Translations under genes and position numbers: made by a program | Shown: positions 3,278 through 21,215 of the stretch, piece after piece | Layout: each line of letters opens with the position of its first letter | How positions within the stretch are numbered: position 1 is the first letter of the stretch | Notes under the pieces: model-generated | What the model saw: the letters and a program-made list of their open reading frames with translations, nothing else | Database searches by the model: none | Told to the model about the DNA's origin: nothing | Virus record (IMG/VR): IMGVR_UViG_3300042923_000358 | Location: 1 to 22,255 of that record | From: a virus | Strand: one strand, 5' to 3' | DNA: 22,255 nucleotides

Positions 3278-4975
3278 TTACAATTGTTTTGGTCTATATG
3301 ACAATGACCAATCACAATCTTCAAATGGTGCAACACCAATTTGTGCAGTGTCGCCACCCTGTAAAACAAGCCACTGTGAATCATCCGTAACATATTGCAT
3401 AAATCTTAAACCGTTTTTATAAACAATTCCAGATTCACAATCAATTTGGATTTCATCACCTGCATGTGCAATAATTGGTGGTACATCTTGATCATCATTA
3501 AACTTATCAATTTCTACATCTGTCCATTGCATCCAGTTTACAATTGGTCTTTCATGGTATGCAGCAGTCCATAGTGCAATTCCTGCTAATGGAGTTGTAT
3601 AGTGATTACTATCATCCGTATATGTCCAAGTCTTTGAAGATTTTTCCGTTAAATCTTCATTCAACCAATGAACACTTGCAGTAAAGACATTTCCTTTTTT
3701 CTGTAATTCAATGTAGCCATATAAATTGGCGTACTCTGAATATGCAGGAATTAAATTACCACCAGAAGAATTTGTATCGGTGTAATAAGTGTAATACGGA
3801 TCATAGGTGTAGTAAGTGGTGGTCGTGTAATACGTATCTTTAACTTTCTTCCACTTGCCACGTACTTTCTTTTTCTTTGTTTTTGTATGCTTTACCTTTT
3901 TAGTGTGTGCAATGGCACGATAATTGGTAACAGTATGAACATAATAAAGTTGCTGTTTACCTTCATTCACGATATCATGTTCATCAGTTTCTCCACCAAT
4001 AGATATATGCATATCAACATCTTCTGCTTTATCTCCATCGTACATATCAAGTTTACCCATTCTTTGACCATGCTGATCTAATAATGTGGCTGTCATTTTC
4101 CCATACTCAAGAGGATCAGATGGAATAAAGTTAACTCTTAATCTTACTCGCCAATCAGTACACAATTGTGGTAGAAATCTTTGAATACAAGCACCATGCC
4201 ATGTATCACCAGATCCATATCCAGTAGTCGATCCAATGGCATTTTTATCCACGTAAATAGAATTTGCAGTAGAAGTATATCCACCATCAATAATTCCATT
4301 GTATGTGTCAAAAGTTTTACTACCATCTGTTACTGTTTCCCATAAGCTTAAATCGTTCATATAATCGTGAATCATTACTTCTTCTGGATCATACGTTGAT
4401 CCATCTGAATCAGGAGAAGGAGATTTACCAATCGCCACATATTTTTGTGCGGTTGTAACAGCTAAATACGGAAGATCTGTTTTTACAACAGCATCAATAA
4501 TTGGTGGTGTTGGTTGCGTTCCTTCAATGGGAATATTTACAACCGAATCAAATATGTCTTGATCTATTTGTGGCAAATAAGCATATGGATCATTGGCAAT
4601 AAATACGAGTGTAAATTGTGCATTATTATCCAATTTAGAGATCTGTGCAGGTGATGTGAATGAACCAATATAAGTTACATCCGGTTCGTCTTCAAATACC
4701 AATTCACCATCATCATCTGTTGGTGTAAATAGTGCATCTGCAACAATATGCATACGCTGTTTTAATTGCTCTGGTGTATCTGCAACTAATGTCACATCTA
4801 GATCAATTTCCCTGTATGTCATTTTGTTTCCCATTTTGTACCTACCTATTAAAGCAGGAACTTCTTGCACGATTTGTTCAGTTTGTGGTGCAAGATATGG
4901 TTTGATATTGTTAACAATAAGAAACAAGTCTTGATATGCATCAAGACCTGCAAAATTAAAATTAGATGGTAACAT
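3278..4975 (-). CDS. Distal tail protein (Dit), enlarged form with carbohydrate-binding-like insertion
   Basis: This 565-residue protein should form the hexameric ring linking the tail tube to the tip. Residues 1-135 match the Sipho_tail/Dit N-terminal fold: an NFNFAG start, a YREIDLDVTLVADTPEQLKQR helix-strand region, and a F-I-A-N-D-P-Y-A-Y end. The last ~70 residues (IIAHAGDEIQIDCESG, then SLSYRPKQL) look like the usual C-terminal jelly-roll edge. Classical Dit proteins are about 250-300 residues; the extra material between them suggests an 'evolved' Dit with a carbohydrate-binding domain for adsorption. Residues about 357-399 are a very unusual Lys-rich then Tyr/Thr-rich low-complexity stretch. 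The ATG at 4975 overlaps the tape-measure stop by 14 bases and has GGGGGGA 7 bases upstream. Confidence 0.88.
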   Translation of the reverse strand: MLPSNFNFAGLDAYQDLFLIVNNIKPYLAPQTEQIVQEVPALIGRYKMGNKMTYREIDLDVTLVADTPEQLKQRMHIVADALFTPTDDDGELVFEDEPDVTYIGSFTSPAQISKLDNNAQFTLVFIANDPYAYLPQIDQDIFDSVVNIPIEGTQPTPPIIDAVVKTDLPYLAVTTAQKYVAIGKSPSPDSDGSTYDPEEVMIHDYMNDLSLWETVTDGSKTFDTYNGIIDGGYTSTANSIYVDKNAIGSTTGYGSGDTWHGACIQRFLPQLCTDWRVRLRVNFIPSDPLEYGKMTATLLDQHGQRMGKLDMYDGDKAEDVDMHISIGGETDEHDIVNEGKQQLYYVHTVTNYRAIAHTKKVKHTKTKKKKVRGKWKKVKDTYYTTTTYYTYDPYYTYYTDTNSSGGNLIPAYSEYANLYGYIELQKKGNVFTASVHWLNEDLTEKSSKTWTYTDDSNHYTTPLAGIALWTAAYHERPIVNWMQWTDVEIDKFNDDQDVPPIIAHAGDEIQIDCESGIVYKNGLRFMQYVTDDSQWLVLQGGDTAQIGVAPFEDCDWSLSYRPKQL

Positions 4976-11734: not shown

Positions 11735-12328
11735 TCATCCAATAGAAGTAGTCGTAGTCGTTGCACTTGCTTGATGAAATACAAACTGTTCAAATGTTGC
11801 ATACGTAAACACAGGACGATTTGAGCGACCTCTTGCCTGTACATAACCATCAAGTCCACGCGCTACGAAAGATCCAGTAATCTTATCCGTTTGCAGCGTT
11901 GCACCACTGTTATCATTAGATTTCAAATCGTTATCTGGATATGCGAACTTACCTTTCAAAAGTCCAAAGTATAGATCGTTACCATCTTTATCAGCCGAAT
12001 GAAGAATTACAGCGACAAAAGGTGGTTTTGTATCTTGACCAACCAAACTAATTCCTTGCTCGTTAGTGACTTCTCCAAGAACCTGCTCTAGAATATCATC
12101 ACTAAGATCTGCAACAGAAAATTCAAGTTGTGGTTCGCCAGTACCTTGTGCAGACACATAAAACGGTACGTTAGAAGCATATACAACATTTCGGTTTGCA
12201 CCTAGACCAGTGATATTCGCTTCCATAGCACCACCGTCTTGTTTATCAACAATTAACGGAGTACCAATAACGGCTTCATTCTCGTCTAGTACAGCGATTT
12301 TTGCATCAGTAAAACCAACACTAGCCAT
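11735..12328 (-). CDS. Major tail protein (tail tube subunit)
   Basis: A 197-residue protein in the canonical position between the tail terminator and the tail assembly chaperone. It has the beta-rich pattern of tube proteins (GFTDAKIAVLDENEAVIG; PQLEFSVADLSDDILEQVLG; DLYFGLLKGKF), as in the phi13-type major tail family. The C terminus ends in SATTTTTSIG, close to the end of the major capsid protein both as protein and as DNA, and is probably surface-exposed on the tube. A strong AAAGGAAGC ribosome binding site precedes the ATG, as for the capsid gene, and a hairpin follows the stop. Several hundred copies per virion would be expected. Confidence 0.87.
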   Translation of the reverse strand: MASVGFTDAKIAVLDENEAVIGTPLIVDKQDGGAMEANITGLGANRNVVYASNVPFYVSAQGTGEPQLEFSVADLSDDILEQVLGEVTNEQGISLVGQDTKPPFVAVILHSADKDGNDLYFGLLKGKFAYPDNDLKSNDNSGATLQTDKITGSFVARGLDGYVQARGRSNRPVFTYATFEQFVFHQASATTTTTSIG

Positions 12329-12374
12329 TTATTATTGCTTCCTTTCAACAAACATAAATATATTTTTAAAGGGA

Positions 12375-12758
12375 TCACTTGAATATAGATTTAGTGAAAC
12401 CTTGCGTAATCATTATTAAAGAATTATCCACAGATGGATCAGTTCTTTGATCATCATAATATTGACCAAAACCTAGATCTGTCATTTTCTCTTCCAGTAG
12501 ATTTCCATATAGATCTGGATCTTCAACATCTTTTGGAATCCATAATTGAACTTGAACTTTGAATGCTTTTTGTTTAATTCTGTTGCTTGCAAACAAATTA
12601 GCATTGTTATTAACTTCAGTAATAAGCATTATAGGAACAATTTCTATCCAATTAGTCTGATCTGGAAGATCCATTGTAAAAATATGATCAGAATCAATTA
12701 TATTTTTGATATCAGAATCTTCTGACAATTCAAGATAAAGATCATCGAGTTTACTCAT
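12375..12758 (-). CDS. Tail terminator / tail completion protein
   Basis: A 127-residue protein overlapping the preceding gene by four bases (ATGA), so translation is probably coupled. Features of the SPP1 gp17 / tail-component family are a short acidic N-terminal helix, a middle segment with QLWIPKDVEDPD, and a compact C-terminal half. The order connector, head closure, gp10-like, terminator, major tail protein is typical of siphoviruses, and position is the main support. It should cap the tail tube and join it to the head. Confidence 0.72.
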   Translation of the reverse strand: MSKLDDLYLELSEDSDIKNIIDSDHIFTMDLPDQTNWIEIVPIMLITEVNNNANLFASNRIKQKAFKVQVQLWIPKDVEDPDLYGNLLEEKMTDLGFGQYYDDQRTDPSVDNSLIMITQGFTKSIFK

Positions 12759-13162
12759 TTTTTAAACATCACACTTCTAAAAGCTTTAACATAAATATCA
12801 AACACTTCATCTTTTACTTCATTAATTGTCTTCTCAATAAAGTGTTGTCCTTTTATGCCTTTGATAGTGCCGTTATTGACAAATACTGCACGCCATGCAG
12901 CACCACCATTCTTTCCTCCCTTATATCCTACCAAAAAAGAACCATCATCTGCAACGCTAGAATACACAACTGCTAATTTTAAATGATTTTTATGTGGATA
13001 GGAATCATCATAAGGAGTATTTTTAGCAAGTATTTCTGCAACAAACTTTGCTGCAACTTTACCTGCATATCGTCTAGCTTTTCTTTGATCGAGAATCAGA
13101 CCTTGTAATGCTGCATCAATTCCCTTGCCTGTCACTTCTACTTTTACTATTGGTGCTACCAT
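12755..13162 (-). CDS. HK97 gp10-like head-tail joining protein
   Basis: A 135-residue basic protein matching the HK97 gp10 / minor tail (gpZ-like) family in length and pattern: VKVEVTGKGIDAALQGL at the start, AKFVAEILAKNTPYDDSY in the middle, and a GTIKGIKGQHFIEKTINE motif near the end, where 'H-F-I-E' is characteristic. It probably takes part in joining tail to head. It starts directly after the preceding stop and overlaps the next gene by four bases. Confidence 0.85.
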   Translation of the reverse strand: MVAPIVKVEVTGKGIDAALQGLILDQRKARRYAGKVAAKFVAEILAKNTPYDDSYPHKNHLKLAVVYSSVADDGSFLVGYKGGKNGGAAWRAVFVNNGTIKGIKGQHFIEKTINEVKDEVFDIYVKAFRSVMFKK

Positions 13163-13510
13163 TTAATCCACTCGTTTCAATGTAACGGCAGTATAGTCAT
13201 TACCTTGTTGAAAATTGGGTTGAATATTGACAATCTCATATCGTTCATTATTATCTGTATTTAAAACAGACATATCATTATTAGGTTCAATTTCTTTATT
13301 CTGTCTAATCACGTAAATGCGAATATCCTTTAACAATGTTCCATTATCATTTAATGCAGCTAATTGATCAGACATTGTAATATTCCATTCTGCTGCCCAA
13401 CAATGAAATACTTCAATGAAACTGTCCTCAACTACTCTTCCACCAACTCGTCTACTCTGTTTTGTCTGAAAAGATAAATGAGTATCAAATCTTTGTGTGT
13501 TTATTTTCAT
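13163..13510 (-). CDS. Head closure protein (SPP1 gp16-like head-tail joining)
   Basis: A 115-residue protein with the phage head-tail joining pattern: a DTHLSFQTK N-terminal strand, a WAAEWNITMSDQLAAL middle, IRIYVIRQNKEIEPNNDMSVL, then NERYEIVNIQP and a final strand ending TAVTLKRVD. These beta-barrel stoppers close the connector after DNA packaging. Its ATG overlaps the stop of the upstream connector gene (13507-13510). Confidence 0.85.
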   Translation of the reverse strand: MKINTQRFDTHLSFQTKQSRRVGGRVVEDSFIEVFHCWAAEWNITMSDQLAALNDNGTLLKDIRIYVIRQNKEIEPNNDMSVLNTDNNERYEIVNIQPNFQQGNDYTAVTLKRVD

Positions 13511-13920
13511 AATAGAACATCTTCAGTAGTATCTTCAGGAGCATCTTCAGGAAAATAATATCTATATGGTTCAAGGATATCTTTAAATGTATATGGAATT
13601 TCTGCACTTGTCGATCCTGTAGGACGAATACCACGATAATCATACCAATGAGCAATTAATGAAATCATAGCAACAACCACATCATGTGGGACTTCAGGAA
13701 TAAAATCAACGAAGTTTCTATTCAGATACGTTTGAACTTTTGATTTTGCTGAATCAATCAATGTGATAATTAATTGATCATCACTCTTATAATCTACTTT
13801 TAGATAATTTTTCATAAAAGTGAGATCAAGTGTATCTACTGTTACTGCTTCAATCGTTGGTACCTGTGTAGTTGTTAATGTTTCTATTATTGTGGTTGTT
13901 GTAGTTGTTTCATCAGCCAT
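13507..13920 (-). CDS. Head-tail connector protein (gp6-like) with Thr-rich N terminus
   Basis: A 137-residue protein. From about residue 28 it matches the gp6-like connector family (DLTFMKNYLKVDYKSDDQLI, then IDSAKSKVQTYLNR, a helical region with ISLIAHWYDYRG, and a proline-rich C terminus). Such proteins form a ring under the portal. The first ~27 residues are unusual: six consecutive Thr at residues 5-10, then TLTTTQVPT. The start at 13920 has a GAGGG ribosome binding site, so the Thr-rich segment appears genuinely translated. An alternative start after this segment is not evident. It is the first head-tail gene after the glycosyltransferase cassette. Confidence 0.85.
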   Translation of the reverse strand: MADETTTTTTIIETLTTTQVPTIEAVTVDTLDLTFMKNYLKVDYKSDDQLIITLIDSAKSKVQTYLNRNFVDFIPEVPHDVVVAMISLIAHWYDYRGIRPTGSTSAEIPYTFKDILEPYRYYFPEDAPEDTTEDVLL

Positions 13921-13951
13921 ACTAAAACCCTCTTTAAAATGTTACTTTTAA

Positions 13952-14125
13952 TCAAATAGCAATTAGAATCAATGCGGCAATCGTCAGAACTGTGAAAATA
14001 GATCCAACAGTAAATTTTCCCCACTGTTTGAATTGATAACCCTCATATGCCATCTGAAACGAATTTGCAGCGCATCCATAAAAATACAATGCAATGATAA
14101 TCAAAATTCCTGCTAGAAAATCCAT
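13952..14125 (-). CDS. Small two-helix membrane protein coupled to the glycosyltransferase
   Basis: A 57-residue ORF. Its ATG shares a base with the glycosyltransferase stop (TAATG at 14123-14127), and GAAGG lies 8 bases upstream, so the two are probably translationally coupled. It contains two hydrophobic segments: residues 4-20 (LAGILIIIALYFYGCAA) and about 40-57 (VGSIFTVLTIAALILIAI). Between them is a polar loop with Tyr, Gln and Lys. It should be an inner-membrane hairpin. No family was recognised. Coupling suggests that it helps the glycosyltransferase, for example by anchoring it near a lipid-linked sugar pool. It could instead be an independent accessory gene such as a superinfection-exclusion peptide. 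A holin role seems less likely this far from lysis genes. Confidence 0.72.
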   Translation of the reverse strand: MDFLAGILIIIALYFYGCAANSFQMAYEGYQFKQWGKFTVGSIFTVLTIAALILIAI

Positions 14126-15030
14126 TATTTAACCTTCTTAATTGCTTCTATATATTTCCAACTACATTTAGTGTGATCGATGTTACTAAAGGTTTCATTA
14201 AATGGTTCTTTGTTGAAATACCTGCCTTTGAAGAAAAGTCCTCTCATATTGGCAGTTACACCTGCATTATGATAAATTTTATTTTTGTCCCACTTGGCAA
14301 TATCATCTGTCGCCCATGAAAAATTTAATTCTGTTGATATGGCAACATCTTTCTCAAAAAATAAGACATTCCACAATTGTGACCACATTTCTGCTGTCCA
14401 TTTTTGAATCGGTTGATAGTTAGATCCATTCGCTTTAATATATCTTGGCTCTTCATTTGAGAACATTCGATACATCTTAGTACAATCCGTATAAACCTTA
14501 TACCAATATTCAGCAGTAGGATGTGTGATAATCCACTGTGCGCCACCTGATCTATTTTCAAGTGTCAATATTTTCCTTCTATTTAATTGTACAATGTTTG
14601 CCATCTTATCTAAAAGATCTGATCCTTTGGATTCAATGTAAGATGGATTTAGATATGAATTACAATTACTTGCAACCCAAAGATCTTCATTATATTTAAT
14701 AGCTTTAAAATCAGGAAGTTCTCTAAATATCACATCAGAATCCATATAGAAAAATGTTTCTTTTTCCATATCCTTATTTTCTCTAAGAAATTGCCACCAA
14801 AGATAAGGCTTGATAGCAGGAATATAAAATTTATCTGATCGATCATCTTTATGAACATAGCAAGTAACACTATATTTATTTTTTAAATGATTGACAATAG
14901 ATATGTTTTCATCTGTAAATAGTAAAATTATATCATCAGGTTTAACACCCAATGAGAATAAATTAGTAAGACAAACATCTAATTCCCATTTAAATCGTTT
15001 AATTGAAGGTTGTGCTAAAATAAATTTCAT
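14125..15030 (-). CDS. Glycosyltransferase-like protein (GT-A fold, DxD)
   Basis: A 301-residue protein that looks like a nucleotide-sugar glycosyltransferase. It has an N-terminal beta-alpha region (MKFILAQPS; VKPDDIILLFTDENIS), the sequence FFYMDSDVIF with a DSD motif at residues 97-99 (expected to bind metal and the sugar-nucleotide phosphates), a SGGAQW segment at 161-166, and IYHNAGVT at 253-259 with a conserved-type His254-Asn255. It is soluble with no signal peptide. It sits between major capsid and connector genes in the late operon, so it is made with virion proteins. Its acceptor could be the Thr-rich ends of capsid, tail tube or connector; modification of host wall polymer is an alternative. 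GGAG lies 10 bases before the ATG. It is an extra gene compared with a minimal siphovirus operon. Confidence 0.8.
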   Translation of the reverse strand: MKFILAQPSIKRFKWELDVCLTNLFSLGVKPDDIILLFTDENISIVNHLKNKYSVTCYVHKDDRSDKFYIPAIKPYLWWQFLRENKDMEKETFFYMDSDVIFRELPDFKAIKYNEDLWVASNCNSYLNPSYIESKGSDLLDKMANIVQLNRRKILTLENRSGGAQWIITHPTAEYWYKVYTDCTKMYRMFSNEEPRYIKANGSNYQPIQKWTAEMWSQLWNVLFFEKDVAISTELNFSWATDDIAKWDKNKIYHNAGVTANMRGLFFKGRYFNKEPFNETFSNIDHTKCSWKYIEAIKKVK

Positions 15031-15057
15031 TTTTATCTATCTCCATTATGTATATAG

Positions 15058-15091
15058 ATGGGCATGAACCGTTTTATTAGTTCATACCCAT
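15058..15091 (-). terminator. Hairpin after the major capsid gene
   Basis: ATGGGTATGAAC and GTTCATGCCCAT pair over 12 bases (one G-T) with a 10-base loop, directly after the capsid stop. No clear T run follows on the minus strand (CTATATACA), so it is more likely a 3'-end stabiliser or RNA-processing barrier than a strong terminator. Confidence 0.6.
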
Positions 15092-15099
15092 TAAATCAA

Positions 15100-16371
15100 T
15101 TATCCACCAATAGTAGAGGTTGTTGTCGTTGCGCTTGATCCATCAGCATCTTGAGTTAAAAGATGTGTCTGAACAGTATTTGCTACGTTAGACTTAACAA
15201 ATACTTTTGGATTGACAACGATACCATCCATATAGCCATCAAGAACAAGAAGGTTTCCACCTTTAAGTGCCTGTGCGCTATCGTGAGAAACTTGCGTCAA
15301 TGCCATATCTTTCTTGATAGAAATCATATAACCTTGAGCAAAGTTACCAAATAGGACAGTATTTGCAGGCATCCGATCAGAGACATAGAGCGTGCAGCCA
15401 AAGAGTTGATAACCTGGAACCTTACCTACAATCGAACGTAGAACGAGATAAGAACCATCACCATCACGAAGCTTCATAAGACGATTAAATGTCGCACGAT
15501 CCGTTACCCACATAGAACCTGTCAAGTAAACTGGATTGATACCTGCATAAATGTCCATGATAGCTTCGATCAACTGCTCACCATCAACAGTAATGCTCTC
15601 AATATCAGCATCGTTCAGGACACCGCTGAAAGTATCACCTGTATCACCGTTACCATTCAGAATTGCATCTTCCAAACATTTTGCAATGCGACCTGCAAGA
15701 TAAGCAATAGAATAGTTAATTACATCGAATTGTGCATCATTAATTGCCTGATTAGACAACTGCAAAGACGCTGCAACTCTACGCTGTTTCAGAGTTACGA
15801 ACTTGAACTTCGGAGCAGTATCAGCAGCATCCGTTAATTCACCAATCCATGCACCCTGTACTGGTGTCTGTGCATCACCGTCTTCATCTTCACGAACAAC
15901 CTTGATATCACCTGTTGCATTGATACGATTTGCTGCCGCAAAAATCGGTGCAGATTCAGTTACCTTTTGAATGATTTGACCATAGATAGTAGTTGGTACG
16001 AGAACGCCACCACCATTGGACGAATCACCAGATTGTTGTGCCGTTAATGCACGAACCTCTTCACCATCTTGCTGACGCAAATATTGTTCAAATCCACGAA
16101 CTTCAGCTTCAGCATCGAGATCTTTGGCATTACGTTGTTCTTTCTTATCCTTAACAAATTCTACTGTGTCAACAGTTTTTAGCTGTTCATTTACAACAGC
16201 AATAGTCTGATCAATAGAACGAATTTCATCATTAAGTGCTTTCATGCGAGTTGTTTCAGCTTCGTCCATAGAACGAGTTTCTGTAACAACAACTTTATTG
16301 ATCAATTCGTTTGCTTCTTTCTTAGCAGCATTACGTTTTTCAATCAACTTTTTCAGCTTATTTTCAGCCAT
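15100..16371 (-). CDS. Major capsid protein (HK97 fold) with N-terminal delta domain and Thr-rich tail
   Basis: A 423-residue protein that builds the icosahedral shell. Residues 1 to about 105 form a charged coiled-coil delta domain (scaffold), followed by a likely protease cleavage region around residues 105-120 (EEVRALTAQQSGDSSNGGG). The HK97-fold body starts with VLVPTTIYGQIIQKV and continues through QRRVAASLQLSNQAIND (E-loop/spine region) and the C-terminal P and A domain segments (YQLFGCTLYVSDRMP; LFGNFAQGYMI; LLVLDGYMDGIVV). The last 13 residues are Ser/Thr-rich (GSSATTTTSTIGG), matching the end of the major tail protein. The upstream gene encodes the processing protease. Ribosome binding site AAAGGAAGC is strong. 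Confidence 0.96.
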   Translation of the reverse strand: MAENKLKKLIEKRNAAKKEANELINKVVVTETRSMDEAETTRMKALNDEIRSIDQTIAVVNEQLKTVDTVEFVKDKKEQRNAKDLDAEAEVRGFEQYLRQQDGEEVRALTAQQSGDSSNGGGVLVPTTIYGQIIQKVTESAPIFAAANRINATGDIKVVREDEDGDAQTPVQGAWIGELTDAADTAPKFKFVTLKQRRVAASLQLSNQAINDAQFDVINYSIAYLAGRIAKCLEDAILNGNGDTGDTFSGVLNDADIESITVDGEQLIEAIMDIYAGINPVYLTGSMWVTDRATFNRLMKLRDGDGSYLVLRSIVGKVPGYQLFGCTLYVSDRMPANTVLFGNFAQGYMISIKKDMALTQVSHDSAQALKGGNLLVLDGYMDGIVVNPKVFVKSNVANTVQTHLLTQDADGSSATTTTSTIGG

Positions 16372-20610: not shown

Positions 20611-20620
20611 AATAAATAAC

Positions 20621-20691
20621 GGTAGATAAGGGAATCGAACCCTTGTTTTGTAATAGACGGTTACATGTAATTACCATTATACTAATCCACC
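20621..20691 (-). tRNA. tRNA-Asp(GTC)-like gene with atypical anticodon loop
   Basis: The minus strand folds as a complete 71-base cloverleaf. The acceptor stem GGTGGAT/ATCTACC has seven pairs (one G-T). There is a short D arm with GG in the loop, and a perfect anticodon stem TGTAA/TTACA around loop CCGTCTA. A 4-base variable region follows, then T stem AAGGG/CCCTT with loop TTCGATT. The base after the acceptor is G, as the tRNA-Asp discriminator; CCA is not encoded. The central triplet is GTC, and G2-C71, G10 and G73 also fit Asp identity. Against normal function, position 33 is C instead of the near-invariant U, and position 37 is U instead of a purine. It may be functional, a pseudogene, or have another job. 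It sits between terS and terL. Confidence 0.82.
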
Positions 20692-20714
20692 ATAATAGGG
20701 ACATACCCTATCAA

Positions 20715-21215
20715 CTATTTTTTTGCTTGCTTGACAAGTTGCATTACAGGATCTTCATCTTCCTCTTTCTTCTGCATTTTTGCACCTGCTAATTGTGCTC
20801 TAGATGCAGGAGAAAGACCTAATTGAGTACACAACGCTCTGAATTGGGACAAATAAACATTTTTTGCATGTACCATTGGATGCTCTTGTTTTTTTGGATT
20901 TCCATATCTATCCTGTGTCACAATCATAATATCCTCTTCATTGAGAATCTCTTGCGCTCTTTTTAATTTACTTAGACAGTCTGCTGTTTGCTCTAGAATA
21001 GGTACATCCAAGTTACATAATAGATCACTAATCTCTAACTCACTCACAAGAAATTTGTAATACTCTTTCCCAACATCATCTAATGATTCTGGAACATTTG
21101 CTAACTTGTCAGCATTTCCTTTTAATTTCTGTTCCTCTTCTGCTCTCTCTGCTAAATCAGTTTTGGATTCTGATTTTCCTTGTTTAAGTAAAGCAGGTTT
21201 TCTAGGTCTTGCCAT
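20715..21215 (-). CDS. terS: Terminase small subunit (P27 family)
   Basis: A 166-residue DNA-recognition subunit of the packaging terminase. It matches the P27 / terminase_4 family: a basic N terminus (MARPRKP), the segment PESLDDVGKEYYKFLVSEL, a central helical region, a DRYGNPKKQEHPMV segment, and the hallmark LGLSPASRAQLA near the C terminus, followed by a Lys/Glu-rich tail. It should bind cos DNA and regulate the large subunit. It follows the HNH gene by a few bases and is separated from terL by a tRNA-like gene. Confidence 0.93.
   Translation of the reverse strand: MARPRKPALLKQGKSESKTDLAERAEEEQKLKGNADKLANVPESLDDVGKEYYKFLVSELEISDLLCNLDVPILEQTADCLSKLKRAQEILNEEDIMIVTQDRYGNPKKQEHPMVHAKNVYLSQFRALCTQLGLSPASRAQLAGAKMQKKEEDEDPVMQLVKQAKK

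Follow-up and report, generated by a model that had tools for sequence, protein, structure and literature searches.

Why should the capsid protein and the tail-tube protein of one virus both end in a run of threonines (Thr), with the gene for a glycosyltransferase-like protein lying close by? The question is raised by a stretch of viral DNA of 22,255 nt, here called the window, which is IMG/VR record IMGVR_UViG_3300042923_000358 from positions 1 to 22,255. Its structural genes are read from the minus strand in the order capsid, 301-residue enzyme, a hydrophobic open reading frame (ORF) of 57 residues, connector, three small neck/tail genes, and tail tube. The major capsid protein (MCP; HK97 type, 423 residues, 15100..16371, minus strand; PF05065, E=2e-39, PHROG 10) ends ...DADGSSATTTTSTIGG, and its tag, SSATTTTSTIGG, is encoded at 15103..15138 (minus strand). 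The major tail (tube) protein (MTP; 197 residues, 11735..12328, minus strand; PF04630, E=3e-18, PHROG 88) ends ...HQASATTTTTSIG, with the tag ASATTTTTSIG encoded at 11738..11770 (minus strand), and both tags are in frame. The enzyme gene (14125..15030, minus strand) lies between the capsid and connector genes, where a sequence-only reading of the window had placed it, and the Thr-rich ends of capsid and tail tube and the Thr-rich start of the connector described in that reading are all present. We propose that the enzyme O-glycosylates the Thr tags on virion proteins, with a probability of roughly 0.84, because the fold, the tag chemistry, the gene position, and the linkage of enzyme to tags jointly fit this reading best; the catalysis, the Thr acceptor, and the sugar are what we infer from them.

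The evidence that carries the proposal is the linkage. A search for relatives of the enzyme gave 80 loci in viral contigs and 31 in bacterial genomes, and at practically all of these loci neighboring genes encode proteins ending in poly-Thr. We counted distinct enzyme sequences with flanking DNA and compared them with loci that encode related capsid and tail proteins but lack the enzyme. One or more Thr-tagged ORFs, mostly two or three, were found at 79 of 79 distinct enzyme loci, whereas tags were absent from 74 of the 76 enzyme-less relatives and the other two (2/76) both have one recombinant tail protein. The sequence-only reading had suggested such a survey of related phages, and the correlation is near-perfect. 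At the level of ORFs, TTTTT falls inside the last 25 residues in 181 of 1977 distinct ORFs from 141 enzyme-positive loci as against 4 of 1787 from 127 enzyme-negative loci, while an internal TTTTT occurs in 12 ORFs only. The gap from the enzyme gene to a tagged gene is below 100 bp in 69 of 79 loci, although the position of the enzyme gene differs among lineages, which have it after the MTP gene, after the MCP gene, or after the gene for a small tail protein. The tagged proteins form 29 sequence clusters with no similarity detected between them, spanning capsid PHROGs 10, 29, 840, and 544 and tail-tube PHROGs 88 and 238, together with a small tail protein (PHROG 14018) and a connector-position protein (PHROG 749). 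We regard it as almost certain that enzyme and tags belong together as one functional unit. As a separate observation, a protein of about 600 residues from the head-maturation-protease family has a terminal Thr tag in some enzyme-positive phages (L067:5258-7072, L068, L073, and L076).

The linkage also holds inside the five protein families in which enzyme-positive and enzyme-negative relatives both occur. Counted as tagged/untagged, the capsid family MCP1 gives 22/1 with the enzyme and 0/52 without it, MCP2 gives 26/3 and 0/10, and the tail families MTP1 and MTP2 give 25/2 and 0/32, and 25/3 and 1/30, respectively. One untagged enzyme-positive case, L112, has capsid and enzyme ORFs that are broken in a draft sequence, and in L065 and L104 the tag is carried by the small tail protein instead. 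The most telling case is found in MTP2, where mostly 94–97% identical proteins of Lacticaseibacillus prophages have the ending TTTTTTSHA where the enzyme is present and ADTAPAQGGSGTGA where it is absent. The Lacticaseibacillus family MCP3 has zero enzyme-less relatives and hence offers no contrast. In trees that excluded the tail residues, all of the supported independent pairs for MCP1 (5 of 5) show enzyme and tail changing jointly, and MTP1 and MTP2 have zero independent pairs in the opposite direction, the pairs being too few for any single family to reach 0.05. A search with the window MCP gave just one near-identical contig, so that named phages served as the matched controls for that capsid type: vipetofem, 9183, PT1-1, F1, SA2, bIL285, and Semele have the enzyme and are all Thr-tagged, whereas GR1, phiLM33, Maenad, 6ec, and BtpYZU02 have neither enzyme nor Thr tags. 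In the reverse direction, viral contigs were picked by the DNA pattern (Thr)7-x-x-stop, which gave at least 120 stretches; the enzyme was present in at least 27 of the 120 poly-Thr-ended stretches listed, as against 0 of 50 records for a poly-Ser control with the same DNA pattern.

What, then, is the enzyme? Its sequence matches PHROG 4417 over the full length of the profile (residues 1-301, E=4.2e-117), a family annotated as being of “unknown function” that has relatives in 74 named phage records and is called “prophage pi2 protein 34” in VPE25 and Orf45 in bIL285. The sequence has no meaningful match in Pfam, NCBIfam, or the PDB; it stays below the cut-off for the named glycosyltransferase (GT) families (GT8, GT2, and others), and among 44 diverse members there are scattered weak Pfam and NCBIfam matches. 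Across these 44 relatives D97 and D99 (MDSD), H254, and QKWTAEMW are invariant. An AlphaFold2 model with a mean predicted local distance difference test (pLDDT) value of 96.6 shows one globular GT-A domain over all 301 residues without a separate membrane segment, and a Foldseek search of the PDB with this model gives 322 matches at E<=0.001, the best being the catalytic domain of UGGT (GT24), LgtC and glycogenin (GT8), and the blood-group enzymes GTA/GTB (GT6). With these enzymes it shares the overall fold and the DxD motif, but it is only about 10% identical to them, superposes at a template modeling (TM) score of about 0.5, and belongs to no Pfam family. The closest viral models are those of uncultured phage A0A6J5SW30 and Orf49 of Lactobacillus phage LP65. 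The enzyme is, as modeled, a GT-A fold protein with a DxD motif for which transferase activity is predicted, and it is this motif and the modeled fold that lead us to assign it to the GTs. The earlier term “DxD glycosyltransferase” thus stands as far as the invariant DxD and the modeled fold go, although the sequence itself is recognized as such in none of Pfam, NCBIfam, and the PDB. Two variants of the family were seen in passing. In many Bacillaceae loci (for example L003:10001-11077) the C-terminus of the enzyme carries a fused domain of about 60 residues that stands alone in relatives (L190:13275-13457) and corresponds to PHROG 3673, whose label, “Arc-like repressor”, is doubtful. Distant members of PHROG 4417 (E~1e-50) occur in large environmental phages (L299:1206-2831, L315, and L297), where they are flanked by poly-Thr-ended proteins of 50-165 residues.

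On this basis we propose a mechanism in which the phage itself supplies a unit for virion O-glycosylation. A soluble enzyme of the GT-A type would be made from the structural gene string and would take a sugar from a donor that is probably a host nucleotide sugar, such as uridine diphosphate (UDP)-hexose or UDP-N-acetylhexosamine (UDP-HexNAc). The sugars would be put on the threonines of short flexible tags at the ends of the capsid and tail-tube proteins, the most abundant proteins of the virion, and perhaps also on the connector, so that the particle would end up sugar-coated. The benefit may be a shield against binding proteins or antibodies, or an aid to adhesion.

The papers that we consulted describe virion glycosylation by phage enzymes for mycobacteriophages and suggest it for some other actinobacteriophages; O-linked glycans at the C-termini of mycobacteriophage capsid and tail-tube proteins are ascribed there to Freeman et al. 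(2023, Cell Host Microbe) (PMC12619734, PMC11652166, PMC11600133, PMC13313380). The unit proposed here resembles that system in its phage-encoded GTs and, by prediction, in having O-linked sugars at the C-termini of capsid and tail tube. Che8, taken as an example of a glycosylating mycobacteriophage, has three tandem GTs, gp108-110, at the far end of its genome, unlike the present phages, mostly of Bacillota, in which one enzyme adjoins the tagged genes. None of gp108, gp109, and gp110 has a detectable relation to the window enzyme (hhalign probability below 1%), which led us to reject homology to the Che8 GTs, and the C-termini of the Che8 capsid and tail proteins carry no poly-Thr tag. The enzyme and its tags would therefore work like mycobacteriophage virion glycosylation, to which neither homology nor acceptor type assigns them. 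Literature searches on poly-threonine or threonine-rich ends in phage virions returned nothing relevant, and the link of PHROG 4417 to Thr tags is new as far as these searches went.

In some phages the tag appears to be added by a different route. The capsid protein of the Andrewesvirinae vipetofem and 9183 has no in-frame Thr tag, but in the -1 frame reading can continue past the capsid stop for about 30-45 residues, which are mostly Thr and are not preceded by a start codon. The extension VVATAK/VTPQPTTTTTTT... follows GCA AAG TAA, and VVAAPK/RVEPTTTT... follows CCA AAA GGG TAG, the slash marking the junction. The -1 frame is conserved in VPE25, nattely, and Planchet, where indels within the extension are multiples of three, and the unrelated loci L006 and L014 have the same -1 layout with TCA AAR TAA. 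Putative -1 frameshift sites at the capsid stop, with slip sites of the form NCA AAR TAA or CCCAAAAG, lie at L389:7860-8022 and L390:10170-10295 and in L416-L418, L006, and L014. From these sequence patterns, programmed -1 frameshifting apparently adds a conserved poly-Thr tail to the capsid protein. A second frameshift extension is possible in Staphylococcus phage SA2 (L413:6545-6808), where a long Thr-rich +1 frame, annotated as a separate coding sequence, comes after the CCC TAA at which a Thr-ended tail protein stops. Listeria phage PSA has frameshift-extended capsid and tail proteins, and the resemblance lies in recoding at the stop codon, by which a major structural protein is also made in a version with a longer C-terminus; unlike PSA, the capsid extension here is in the -1 frame and is poly-Thr, and the possible +1 case is confined to the SA2 tail protein. 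Taking these cases together, we lean toward a wider picture in which PHROG 4417 and the poly-Thr tags form a portable and widespread virion-glycosylation module of Bacillota phages and large environmental phages, the tag having been attached to capsid, tail, and decoration proteins that are unrelated to one another; in some phages programmed frameshifting at the stop of the capsid gene would add it, and just a fraction of the subunits would then be sugared.

Several observations weigh against virion O-glycosylation by this enzyme. The Lacticaseibacillus prophage contigs L218, L221, and L227 share a tail protein ending SVSGETTTTTTTSK and lack the enzyme, of which there is no trace in their whole records (40, 12, and 41 kb). 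The capsid of L218 is untagged, and the orphan tag of the three contigs looks like what remained after a single recombination between the genes for capsid and tail. Most poly-Thr C-termini of large environmental phages, whose records are mostly fragments, come without a detected PHROG 4417 relative. The TM scores of about 0.5 mean that the class of donor or acceptor cannot be read from the fold, and glycosylation itself is something that we infer from genes, tags, modeled fold, DxD, and linkage.

The matching of capsid and tail ends, on which the sequence-only reading had drawn, carries less weight than that reading gave it. Within one genome the two ends often match past the Thr run (SA/SA, AAV/AAV, and SGAGA/SGAGA), but the enzyme-less L117, L119, L124, and L190 also have alike capsid and tail ends (TEPEGA, PEGA, and EPSGV/EPTGV), and in L117 TPTEPEGA terminates both proteins. 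The matching has a broader cause, since enzyme-less relatives show it too; what goes with the enzyme is the Thr content alone, and a matching suffix was rejected as sole evidence of glycosylation. The earlier argument from matching tails consequently keeps its force for Thr content, which tracks the enzyme, and loses some for the matching itself (EPEGA/EPEGA without an enzyme). Its claim that the DNA of the two window tails is alike is correct in that both contain GCAACGAC and CTATTGG, except that the MCP gene has a further TGGA between CTATTGG and the stop. Aligned, the tails have seven identical residues (A, T, T, T, T, I, and G) with the same codon at only 3 of 7, so that the DNA likeness is no greater than the protein likeness demands and a recent DNA duplication as the source of the matching tails is unsupported. 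The reading of the tails as O-glycosylation acceptor tags is nevertheless supported, by the linkage and by the GT-A fold of the model.

Other explanations have to be weighed against the same evidence. It is conceivable, though unlikely, that the tails are modified by a host O-glycosylation system or by another phage enzyme and that the linked GT merely primes or extends the glycan; tails without this enzyme do exist, and schemes with several enzymes occur, as the three GTs of Che8 illustrate, but at most loci this is the sole enzyme consistently tied to tags, and tag loss tracks the loss of this one gene. We regard as quite improbable that the acceptor is a polymer of the host wall or a receptor, as in superinfection exclusion or serotype conversion, with the tails serving another purpose such as adhesion. 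Phage GTs that modify the host surface are well known from general knowledge and are mentioned in PMC12619734, but this explanation accounts neither for the enzyme-dependent presence or absence of tails in many families nor for the nearness of the enzyme gene to tagged genes and its position in the structural module, and the wholly globular 301-residue model, which lacks a separate membrane segment, also speaks against it. That the Thr runs are neutral slippage expansions common in these phages is very hard to sustain. The runs are of low complexity and differ in length between relatives, but the 227 terminal runs draw on all four Thr codons, with identical neighboring codons in 26.5% of cases as against 27.3% expected; because the Thr codons are mixed, slippage is not the cause, and with the terminal position of the runs (181 C-terminal ORFs versus 12 internal ones) replication slippage as their origin was ruled out; the lack of runs in close enzyme-less relatives and a reading frame conserved across the capsid stop also argue against it. 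Glycosylation of phage DNA bases with coincidental Thr tails is scarcely credible, for although phage-encoded DNA glucosyltransferases exist (general knowledge; PMC12619734), this enzyme is linked to the tails and placed in the capsid-tail module, and no genes for synthesis of hypermodified bases were recognized in the window.

If the enzyme O-glycosylates the Thr tags, as we propose, this as yet unnamed family of enzymes gains a probable function and a named acceptor. Its members occur in well-known phages and prophages of Enterococcus, Lactobacillus, Lactococcus, Staphylococcus, and halophilic Bacillaceae. The tag is legible from sequence alone, which makes genome-wide prediction of glycosylated virions possible, and a frameshift that makes a sugar-acceptor tail, if true, would be an unusual means of setting the number of modified subunits. 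For phage therapy the relevance would lie in the recognition of particles by antibodies, as reported for mycobacteriophages.

The remaining features of the window are of less weight. The head-tail connector (adaptor Ad1, 137 residues, 13507..13920, minus strand; PF05135, PHROG 40), on whose assignment Pfam and PHROGs agree as they do for capsid and tail tube, begins MADETTTTTTII and has the N-terminal run MADETTTTTTIIETLTTT. Such a run has few parallels, with three N-terminal cases in the ORF survey of relatives, and as a tag it is a weaker case than those of capsid and tail tube. The small hydrophobic ORF between the enzyme and connector genes (57 residues, 13952..14125, minus strand) has no family match in Pfam or PHROGs. 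A long Dit protein of 565 residues (3278-4975, minus strand) contains two Dit domains separated by an insertion in which a KHTKTKKKK...TTTTYYTYDPYYTYYTD stretch occurs, and a tRNA-Asp (GTC) gene at 20619-20692 (minus strand) lies between the gene for the terminase large subunit and the ORF at 20715-21215.

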